DNA of 48,081 bases, from NCBI GenBank assembly GCA_902787305.1, contig CADAFS010000007.1:1-48081 (forward strand), read 5' to 3'. This document shows, in pieces, positions 32,595 through 36,900 of the stretch. Below the pieces are notes generated by a model. That model was not told the DNA's origin. It searched no databases and saw nothing but the letters and a program-made list of their open reading frames with translations. Position numbers and translations under genes: made by a program. Source of the stretch: an uncultured Pseudomonadota bacterium (GTDB lineage Bacteria; Pseudomonadota; Alphaproteobacteria; Rs-D84). Every line of letters starts with the position of its first letter. Position 1 is the first letter of the stretch.

Positions 32595-34481
32595 ATGCTG
32601 CACACATCGGATTTTGATTTTGAATTGCCACCGGAACTTATTGCGTCGCACCCCCTTGTGCGCCGTGATGCATCGCGTATGTTGGTGGTGCAAAGTTCCC
32701 CTCCGTTGGAGGGGTGCCCGCAGGGCGGGGTGGTCAGAGACACCGTAAATTACCGCACATTACCATTTAATCCAAACCTGAAACAACGCGCCTGCGAATT
32801 GCGCAGGGCCGGCAGTTTGCCAGAGGCTTTACTCTGGAACGAGATAAAAAACAAAAAGTTAAATGGCCTTGATTTTGATAGGCAAAAAATAATTGGAAAT
32901 TACATAGTTGATTTTTTCTGCGCATCAAAGTTTTTGGTAATCGAAATAGATGACAAAACGCACGACTTTAAAATCGAATATGACAAAGCGCGTGATGAAT
33001 ATTTGAAATCATTGCACCTTAATGTGATACATGTGTCCGCCGCGGAAGTGTTGAAAAATCCGCACGGTATTTTTCTCTGGCTCTCTAACCACCCTGGCAC
33101 TTCGTGCCACCCCTCCACAGGAGGGGAACCCGCTCTCTCTGACAAACATATTCGTGATTTTTTAGATTACCTGCGCCCAGGCGATGTTGTTGTGTTTAAC
33201 AATTCGCGGGTAATTCCGGCGCGCTTTGATGCGGACGGCCATGAAATCACACTGCACACCGCGGTGGATGATAAAAATTGGTGGGGCCTGTGTAAAAAGT
33301 TTAACAAAATAAACATCGGCGACACACTTACCATGACGGACGGCACAACAATAACCGTTATGGATAAAGACGACGAAAGCGGCCTGTTGTTACAATTCAA
33401 TTGCGACAATGTTTTTGATGTGCTGAACCGCGTTGGTAAAATGCCATTGCCACCGTATATGAAACGTGACGCCGAAATCGCCGACCAAACGCGCTATCAA
33501 ACGGTTTATGCGGATCCGCTTGGGTCAATGGCGGCACCGACGGCGGGTTTGCACTTTACCGATGAATTGATGCATGAAATAGAGGCGCGCGGCGCAAAAA
33601 TAGTAAAAATCACATTACATGTTGGCGCGGGAACATGGATGCCGGTTAAAACTGAAAACCTTTCCGAACATAAAATGCACAGTGAATGGTGCCAAATCAC
33701 ACCCGCCCAGGCCGACATTATAAACAACGCAACGCGTGTAATCGCCGTTGGAACAACAACACTGCGCACATTGGAATCCGCCGCGTCAAGTTCCCCTCCT
33801 TTGGAGGGGTGGCGGGTAGCACCCGCCGGGGTGGTTAGAGACACCGCAAACTATCGCACATTACCATTTAACCCAAAATTAAAAGAGCGTGCACGCGAAT
33901 TGCGTCATGCTGGCAGTTTGCCCGAGGCATTATTGTGGAACGAAATCAAAAATAAAAAATTAAATGGTCTGGATTTTGATAGACAGAAAATAATTGGAAA
34001 TTACATCGTTGATTTCTTTTGTGCGTCAAAATTTTTAGTTATCGAGGTTGACGATAAAACCCGTGACACAAAAGTTGATTATGATAGGCAGCGTGATGAA
34101 TATCTAAAATCTTTAAATCTTGCAGTGATACATATCCAGGCCAAAGATGTCTTGCAAGACCCTCACGGTGTTTTTAACTGGCTGTCTAACCACCCCGGCA
34201 CTTCGTGCCACCCCTCCAACGGAGGTGAACGTGCGCGTGTTGCACCGTTTTGTGGTACAACGGATATTTTTATCACACCGGGATATAAATTTCGTGCGGT
34301 TGACGTTTTGCTGACGAATTTTCACCTGCCGAAATCAACACTTTTTATGTTGGTGTCGGCGTTTAGTGGACTTGCCGAAATGAAGGCCGCATACGCCCAC
34401 GCCGTCGCCGAAAAATATAGGTTTTTCAGTTATGGCGATTGCTGTTTATTGTTCAGAAAGGAGAACCAGGATGAAATTTGA
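32595..34481 (+). CDS. queA: QueA tRNA ribosyltransferase-isomerase with two in-frame DUF559 inserts
   Basis: QueA transfers the ribosyl part of S-adenosylmethionine to preQ1 in tRNA, making epoxyqueuosine. The 628-residue frame is much longer than the normal 350 or so. Residues of about 34-178 and 399-545 are DUF559/Vsr-like endonuclease domains from mobile elements; without them about 336 residues of QueA remain. All QueA blocks are intact: FELPPELIASHP, VVFNNSRVIPAR, KMPLPPYM, APTAGLHF, TLHVGAGTW, VGTTTLRTLES, ITPGYKFRAVDVLLTNFHLP and YRFFSYGD. The inserts sit in two loops variable in other QueA proteins (by comparison with the E. coli enzyme from memory). I chose the start at 32595 (MLHTSDFDFELPP), one base after the lipoprotein gene's stop. 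The end overlaps the next gene by 11 bases. Whether the fusion is active or the inserts are processed out is unknown. Confidence 0.9.
   Translation: MLHTSDFDFELPPELIASHPLVRRDASRMLVVQSSPPLEGCPQGGVVRDTVNYRTLPFNPNLKQRACELRRAGSLPEALLWNEIKNKKLNGLDFDRQKIIGNYIVDFFCASKFLVIEIDDKTHDFKIEYDKARDEYLKSLHLNVIHVSAAEVLKNPHGIFLWLSNHPGTSCHPSTGGEPALSDKHIRDFLDYLRPGDVVVFNNSRVIPARFDADGHEITLHTAVDDKNWWGLCKKFNKINIGDTLTMTDGTTITVMDKDDESGLLLQFNCDNVFDVLNRVGKMPLPPYMKRDAEIADQTRYQTVYADPLGSMAAPTAGLHFTDELMHEIEARGAKIVKITLHVGAGTWMPVKTENLSEHKMHSEWCQITPAQADIINNATRVIAVGTTTLRTLESAASSSPPLEGWRVAPAGVVRDTANYRTLPFNPKLKERARELRHAGSLPEALLWNEIKNKKLNGLDFDRQKIIGNYIVDFFCASKFLVIEVDDKTRDTKVDYDRQRDEYLKSLNLAVIHIQAKDVLQDPHGVFNWLSNHPGTSCHPSNGGERARVAPFCGTTDIFITPGYKFRAVDVLLTNFHLPKSTLFMLVSAFSGLAEMKAAYAHAVAEKYRFFSYGDCCLLFRKENQDEI
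32695..33129 (+). mobile_element. DUF559-coding palindromic element, copy 1 in queA
   Basis: This 435-bp insert (145 codons exactly) is bounded by perfect 10-bp inverted ends GTTCCCCTCC (32695-32704) and GGAGGGGAAC (33120-33129). Each end carries further hairpins, for example GGCACTTCGTGCC at the right. It encodes, in the queA frame, a DUF559 domain with LPEALLWNEIKNKKLNG, GNYIVDFFCASKFLVIEIDD (Asp and Glu of the Vsr/PD-ExK-type site) and RDEYLKSLHLNVIHV. There is no stop codon. Confidence 0.85.
33790..34230 (+). mobile_element. DUF559-coding palindromic element, copy 2 in queA
   Basis: This 441-bp insert (147 codons) is bounded by GTTCCCCTCC (33790-33799) and GGAGGTGAAC (34221-34230, one mismatch from perfect). 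By eye its protein is about four fifths identical to copy 1. The core from SLPEALLWNEIKNK to FFCASKFLVIE is unchanged, while many third codon positions differ. That pattern implies separate insertions or an old duplication with selection on the encoded domain. Confidence 0.85.
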
Positions 34482-36858: not shown

Positions 36859-36900
36859 TTCTCCTCCTGTGGAGGAGTACGGCGAAGCCGGGAGGTGGTC
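36858..36900. repeat. Solo end of the DUF559-type palindromic element
   Basis: GTTCTCCTCC starts at the last base of the tgt stop codon. GGAGGAG, a small hairpin (GGCGAAGCC) and GGAGGTGGTC follow, almost as in the left arm at 1762-1803. No opposite arm is seen. Confidence 0.7.

Follow-up and report, generated by a model that had tools for sequence, protein, structure and literature searches.

DUF559 nuclease domains inserted in frame in queA as a probable non-splicing, protein-embedded, homing-like mobile element

Introduction

Selfish elements that reside within genes are thought either to need splicing, as introns and inteins do, or to stay tiny, as the Rickettsia palindromic elements (RPEs) do. 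Inteins recur at fixed sites and excise by protein splicing. The homing endonuclease I-Bth0305I is a group I intron enzyme, and Vsr is a free-standing repair enzyme. Inteins with homing endonucleases are described as in-frame, nuclease-bearing and sporadically distributed elements that spread horizontally (PMC1635734, PMC10643990). RPEs are described as palindromic elements of ~150 bp, each encoding a conserved peptide, that lie in frame in unrelated protein genes and are predicted to form translational fusions (PMC10969869). The mORFs of fungal mitochondria are described as endonuclease open reading frames that keep the phase of a host gene and are said to spread by cleaving alleles that lack the ORF; they bring a replacement C-terminus that displaces the native one (PMC3630166).

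Here we describe two in-frame inserts in a queA gene, found in a 48,081-nucleotide stretch of DNA (the window), which appear to unite what characterises two known kinds of element, those that home and those that are palindromic and inserted in frame. Like RPEs, each is an in-frame palindromic insert in a protein gene. Unlike RPEs, compared by description only and as described in PMC10969869, where no nuclease is named, the queA insert carries a conserved nuclease domain under selection and recurs at the same two sites of a single gene. Unlike mORFs, the inserts are internal, and a single native QueA C-terminus follows insert 2. We found no description of a protein-internal, DUF559-bearing, non-splicing element in the open-access literature. 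The sequence comparisons presented below indicate that the inserts are probably a non-splicing, protein-embedded, homing-like mobile element.

Results

The window queA gene (positions 32595-34481) is a single open frame of 628 codons comprising an intact QueA and two in-frame inserts of 145 and 147 codons, which make the protein 87% larger. When the whole window protein was scanned, the Pfam match to QueA (E 2.9e-111) was divided over three stretches, and DUF559 was matched twice (whole-protein E 2.2e-52), once in each insert, as the initial annotation had read from the frame. The NCBIfam QueA model scored 400.9 bits against a cut-off of 324 with the inserts left in, and both inserted domains exceeded the curated cut-off of 20.6 bits for DUF559 (PF04480; Table 1). 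The upstream neighbours are the gene for the GTPase Era and a small frame without a Pfam match, and those downstream encode an M16 peptidase and the queuosine transglycosylase Tgt (tgt). A profile search of the window's genome (G000; 904 kb, 91% complete) found one queA and no second intact copy. The same genome had no DUF559 besides the queA pair in a profile search at E 0.001.

Table 1. Positions of the queA segments, inserts and hairpin ends in the window
Feature	Position	Strand	Evidence
Nuclease-free miniature element, same kind of ends, between two open frames	1763..1892	.	Two end matches and sequence
queA N-terminal part, residues 1-33	32595..32693	+	Pfam/NCBIfam QueA; QueA HMM positions up to ~38
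Insert 1, in-frame element at site 1, residues 34-178	32694..33128	+	Absent from empty queA genes; hairpin ends
Left outer hairpin, insert 1	32696..32716	+	Pattern match, 0 mismatches
DUF559 (PD-(D/E)XK, Vsr-like) domain, insert 1	32778..33071	+	PF04480, 92.1 bits; predicted fold similar to 3hrl, 3r3p and Vsr
Right outer hairpin, insert 1	33108..33128	-	Pattern match, 0 mismatches
queA middle part, residues 179-398	33129..33788	+	PF02547 positions 35-258
Insert 2, in-frame element at site 2, residues 399-545	33789..34229	+	Absent from close relative G114 and from empty queA genes
Left outer hairpin, insert 2	33791..33811	+	Pattern match, 0 mismatches
DUF559 domain, insert 2	33876..34178	+	PF04480, 91.8 bits
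Right outer hairpin, insert 2	34209..34229	-	Pattern match, 1 mismatch
queA C-terminal part and stop, residues 546-628	34230..34481	+	PF02547 positions 251-322

Alignment with empty queA genes showed that both sites vary naturally in length, in agreement with the initial placement of the inserts in variable loops. The further claim that QueA resumes precisely after each insert held at the protein level. At the DNA level, loops that vary naturally allow neither the exact boundaries nor a target duplication to be fixed. At site 2, comparison by eye with the empty gene of the close relative G114 suggested that ~15 nt of native loop had been replaced, and no clear target-site duplication was visible in this variable loop. 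A GGAGG lies in the left hairpin, with an in-frame GTG after it; judged from these letters, the nuclease might also be translated on its own from a start within queA.

The whole protein was modelled with AlphaFold from 75 homologues (mean pLDDT 85.3), and the QueA core and both inserted domains were predicted with confidence. Low confidence was confined to residues 345-347, the last three residues and the stretches 36-50, 172-176, 405-417 and 536-544. The four stretches are the hairpin-encoded peptides, and the model suggests that these linkers around the inserts are disordered. Modelled alone, the insert reached a pLDDT of 92.9. It matched 3hrl (Z 13.4, rmsd 1.6, 91 residues aligned), the homing endonuclease I-Bth0305I (3r3p; Z 11.3, rmsd 2.4, 91 aligned) and Vsr (Z 9.8, rmsd 2.0, 96 aligned); the match to TnsA was weak (Z 6.8, rmsd 3.3, 98 aligned). 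Four acidic residues, E28, D57, E68 and D70 (numbered on a 120-residue piece), were invariant in 89 aligned DUF559 domains, and we take them to be the catalytic residues. The predicted model and the invariant acidic residues together place the domain in the PD-(D/E)XK/Vsr-like nuclease fold, and from the model we infer a homing nuclease.

Like inteins, the queA inserts are in-frame, nuclease-bearing, sporadic and recurrent at fixed sites. This intein-like architecture would fit a self-splicing intein or intron that carries an unusual nuclease and is removed at the protein or RNA level. Unlike inteins, the inserts have no splicing domain and lie in variable loops. Scans of the whole protein with Pfam and NCBIfam (E 0.01) found no splicing (Hint) domain, and Rfam gave no group I or group II intron match at E values up to 1; its only match was to an sRNA, on the other strand and below the gathering score. 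Splicing was rejected on these grounds, and a self-splicing origin of the inserts is extremely improbable. Searches against PHROGs returned weak matches only.

Filled and empty alleles of the same sites coexist in the family, as they do for homing elements. A QueA match was obtained in 170 of 183 family genomes, and in 127 of these 170 QueA was matched end to end, unbroken, so that the insert-free versions for which the initial annotation had suggested searching exist. DUF559 was located in queA in 29 of the 183 genomes. These contain 32 inserts, always in the same two loops, with 17 at site 1 and 15 at site 2. Both sites are filled in G000, G067 and G088, the last being spread over two contigs. 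Where queA ends at a contig end near a site, as in G096, G162, G146 and G115, the allele is unreadable. Nuclease-free inserts or remnants occupy the same two sites in G020, G193, G103, G087, G100 and G204, and the genes fetched, with one that was retrieved twice entered once, included 99 uninterrupted queA in the family and 14 outside it. In an order-wide search of 192 genomes, DUF559 matches outside the family were found only in G044, in frames of up to 129 aa.

Among named records, 22 of 56 loci, from 21 genomes and several projects, have DUF559 in a QueA frame. All are titled as metagenome bins or uncultured organisms, under the names Alphaproteobacteria, proteobacterium or bacterium, and many come from rumen or gut samples. 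An assembly chimera was rejected in view of the presence of DUF559 in queA of 29 genomes and in these 22 named loci from several projects.

In G017 (L122:1360-2200), a truncated 5' copy of queA stops at an element end in site 1; as read by eye, it is joined to the apparent 3' end of era, and an intact queA follows. This tandem partial duplication is perhaps the trace of a misrepaired break. In G066 (L136/L152), two partial queA frames overlap, one covering HMM positions 2-190 and the other 73-345; either a tandem duplication or faulty assembly may account for them. G083 has two full-length queA copies, on contigs C5 and C11.

Insertions of this size could also be neutral accidents in a queA whose function is being lost. 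The enlargement of the window protein, the broken extra 5' copy in G017 and the case of G107 fit such decay. In G107 (L098, first 130 nt, reverse strand), an in-frame stop lies 27 codons before DUF559, near the contig end. All the sequence that the contig has to the left of the domain differs from QueA and from the left end found in other inserts. DUF559 and the downstream QueA share one frame; this may be a broken gene or an assembly edge. The inserts of G068 and G064 run off the contig end on their left, with the frame open. Against decay, a single open frame joins the insert to QueA on either side in the other 29 of the 32 cases. Between the window and G114, both filled, host queA showed a pN of 0.021 against a pS of 0.24, and the window's genome yielded no other queA. 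We therefore consider a decaying queA very unlikely.

The inserts' proteins had been reported as more alike than their silent positions, and the counts bear this out. Between window inserts 1 and 2, 46.7 of 60.8 silent sites differ, which is saturated, compared with 28.3 of 233.2 replacement sites. Among nearest insert pairs, the dN/dS of window insert 1 was 0.055 against the insert of G105 and 0.032 against that of G133, a pair whose silent sites are near saturation. For the nine queA-insert pairs with dS between 0.05 and 1, the median dN/dS was 0.18; two pairs, both cross-lineage, had values of ~0.8. Collectively, these substitution patterns and those of the host gene point to purifying selection on both the DUF559 domain and the filled host queA.

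Comparison of individual genomes suggested movement of the element between species. The site-1 inserts of G067 and G013 encode an identical DUF559 protein, with an insert dS of 0.02 against a host queA dS of 0.77. In the alignment, near-identity extends from the left end of the insert almost to its right end, which is diverged, and returns for ~90-100 bp of queA downstream of the insert. Silent divergence in this 3' flank was 3 in 22.0 sites, compared with 0.51 for the remaining downstream part of queA and 0.55 for the part before the insert, and the flank ratio was the lowest among 416 pairs of similar divergence, this pair included. The flank is thus a probable co-conversion tract, and horizontal spread with co-conversion of the flank, as expected of a homing element, is seen in this one clear pair. 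A second pair, G123 and G161, had an insert dS of 0.07 against a host dS of 0.22, based on 67 host codons only. The pair G013 and G128 is a counter-example, the insert dS (0.88) exceeding the host dS (0.65).

The window and G114 (host dS 0.29) illustrate turnover at the sites. The left end of insert 1 is nearly unchanged in both, and the core that follows switches to another DUF559 lineage, which shows partial in-place replacement of the resident element. G114 lacks insert 2, so after the two diverged this insert was either acquired by one of them or lost by the other.

A queA protein tree of 148 rows was built with the insert parts removed. Site 1 (15 filled rows) required 14 changes on this tree and site 2 (14 filled rows) required 13. 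For genes filled at either site (27 rows), 20 changes were needed compared with a shuffled mean of 25.2. Only 1 shuffle among 500 gave a value as low, so the filled genes show mild clustering. In the tree behind these counts, 48 of the 145 inner branches lacked support and were drawn open, one row labelled empty (L137) is a fragment from a filled gene, and two rows (L114, L115) retained part of an insert. If only branches with good support are counted, the number of changes required falls to 3-6.

The DUF559 tree (69 rows, 98 columns) contains a clade of 26 (SH-aLRT 98) composed of 13 site-1 inserts, 12 site-2 inserts and one free copy, with the two sites interleaved. The site label changes 10 times per site in the whole tree and 9 times among the queA rows alone. 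The window insert 1 is nearest to a site-2 insert, that of G105 (96% identity). Two further DUF559 lineages occupy the same queA sites, one beside inserts in TsaB and TruA and the other grouped with inserts in QueH and RecO. Free-standing copies cluster apart (5 changes compared with 21.5 shuffled). The sole free copy of the queA-dwelling clade (L105:620-1290, G187) lies between hairpins after a gene, in a stretch taken as intergenic, with a miniature element beside it.

The recurrence of different lineages at the same sites bears on whether DUF559 was retained for a benefit that the fusion brings to the host, such as defence or the regulation of tRNA modification. Purifying selection on the domain would be expected of such domestication, and several of the host proteins are tRNA-modification enzymes. 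The sporadic presence and turnover of the inserts, and the occurrence of different DUF559 lineages and nuclease-free remnants at the same sites, argue in the other direction and make domestication unlikely. The suggestion that the inserts are a selfish element surviving inside host proteins is supported by these data: alleles are filled or empty, insertion has recurred at two sites, and one lineage is present in both. Interspecies transfer with probable co-conversion, purifying selection and the presence of related inserts in other host genes add to its support.

The search of the 183 family genomes gave 114 DUF559 matches at E 1e-20 or better, from which all 45 in frames of at least 200 aa and 24 others were fetched; 45 in shorter frames were left out. 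By host, scored for representatives, the 45 long-frame matches comprise 32 in queA, 4 in QueH, 2 in RecO, 2 in TsaB, 1 in TruA, a single N-terminal case in pyruvate:ferredoxin oxidoreductase and 3 (L091, L105, L118) for which no host was recognised. Hence the inserts have relatives in other host genes, namely QueH, RecO, TsaB and TruA, for which the initial annotation had suggested looking. The oxidoreductase case (L106) was rejected as an internal insert, the junction being N-terminal. The QueH inserts (L063, L065, L066 and L067, in G069, G134, G149 and G150), in another queuosine enzyme, form one clade.

Such a distribution could also arise by transposition of a palindromic element with survivor bias. 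Elements would insert anywhere, only those in frame in tolerant loops would survive, and the nuclease would serve random transposition. The natural length variation of both QueA loops, the frequent occurrence of intergenic copies and miniature elements, and the existence of other hosts fit such a process. Random insertion sits less easily with the finding of 32 of 45 long-frame matches in one gene of genomes of ~0.9 Mb, or with 25 of the 26 members of one clade in queA, and the probable co-conversion tract points instead to recombination between alleles. Survivor bias is the less likely explanation, and we favour the homing-like element.

Each insert is bounded on the outside by TTCCCCTCCnnnGGAGGGGTG and its complement, which can form hairpins. 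When as many as 3 mismatches are allowed, this end pattern occurs 36 times in the 904-kb genome, including the four queA ends, compared with 0 occurrences of a reversed-pattern control. Many of the 32 palindromic ends outside queA flank apparently intergenic elements of ~100-130 nt that lack a nuclease. One of these lies at the start of the window (Table 1); a search for its target-site duplication against four relatives found no empty site in this repeat-rich region. A further end of a nuclease-free miniature element lies at ~36859-36879 of the window, apparently between genes.

Counts of the end pattern per genus genome ranged from 0 to 35. As raw counts that ignore kinship, the pattern was present in 41 of 59 genus genomes with DUF559 compared with 14 of 97 without; after discounting two ends per DUF559 copy, the counts, likewise ignoring kinship, were 27 of 59 and 14 of 97. 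The 14 genomes that have ends without DUF559 argue against a strict link between ends and nuclease. The frame is open through both nearest hairpins in all 23 queA inserts that have hairpins on both sides (23 of 32 inserts) and in 10 of the 31 free copies with hairpins (31 of 53), a comparison that is partly circular since a host gene must stay open. In one queA gene (L072, G013), a third in-frame palindromic insert of ~81 nt, without a nuclease, lies at approximately HMM position 67.

Discussion

The mechanism that we propose begins with a coding frame that neither hairpin end closes. An element that enters a tolerant loop in frame would then yield one continuous host protein with a nuclease domain held on flexible linkers, and nothing would be removed at the RNA or protein level. 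The DUF559 domain, made within QueA, would nick or cut DNA at or near empty queA loops, or at what earlier elements have left there. A filled copy would then serve as the template for repair and the element would be duplicated, which is homing in effect. The occupation of two queA sites by one lineage argues against strict site-specific homing. Remnants of earlier elements at both loops may serve as landing pads, which would account for one lineage using both sites. The hairpin ends would aid recombination, and through them miniature copies that lack the nuclease could reach other parts of the genome.

We tentatively suggest, at somewhat less than even confidence, that these inserts form a new class, a non-splicing protein-embedded homing element that has become a permanent nuclease domain of a housekeeping enzyme, and that the QueA domain may mobilise miniature elements genome-wide. 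The latter idea follows from the finding that the only DUF559 located in the window's genome is the QueA pair, with 32 further ends scattered through it.

A whole nuclease domain persists in a conserved enzyme of tRNA modification, by all appearances without being spliced, and seems to spread by interspecies recombination. It offers a case from nature in which selfish DNA drives domain insertion, a possible route to new multidomain proteins, and a testable model for homing without splicing.

It also places the DUF559 family, which is widespread but poorly understood, in the setting of mobile elements. VsrA of Caulobacter is described as a chromosomal Vsr-like protein (PMC12907096), and DUF559 segments of Legionella are described as recombination hotspots (PMC12308824). 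DUF559 relatives in other phyla (e.g. Methylomonas, Balneatrix, Calditrichaeota and Planctomycetia) have the same domain as the queA inserts and, unlike them, mostly look free-standing; several lie between similar hairpins, CCCCTCCnnnGGAGGGG. One relative departs from this arrangement. In Methylotenera (L283:779-3394), DUF559 interrupts, in frame, the C-terminal domain of a restriction enzyme of type ISP, with PF18135 positions 1-192 preceding it and positions 182-341 following it, suggesting that a protein-internal life is not confined to the window's family.
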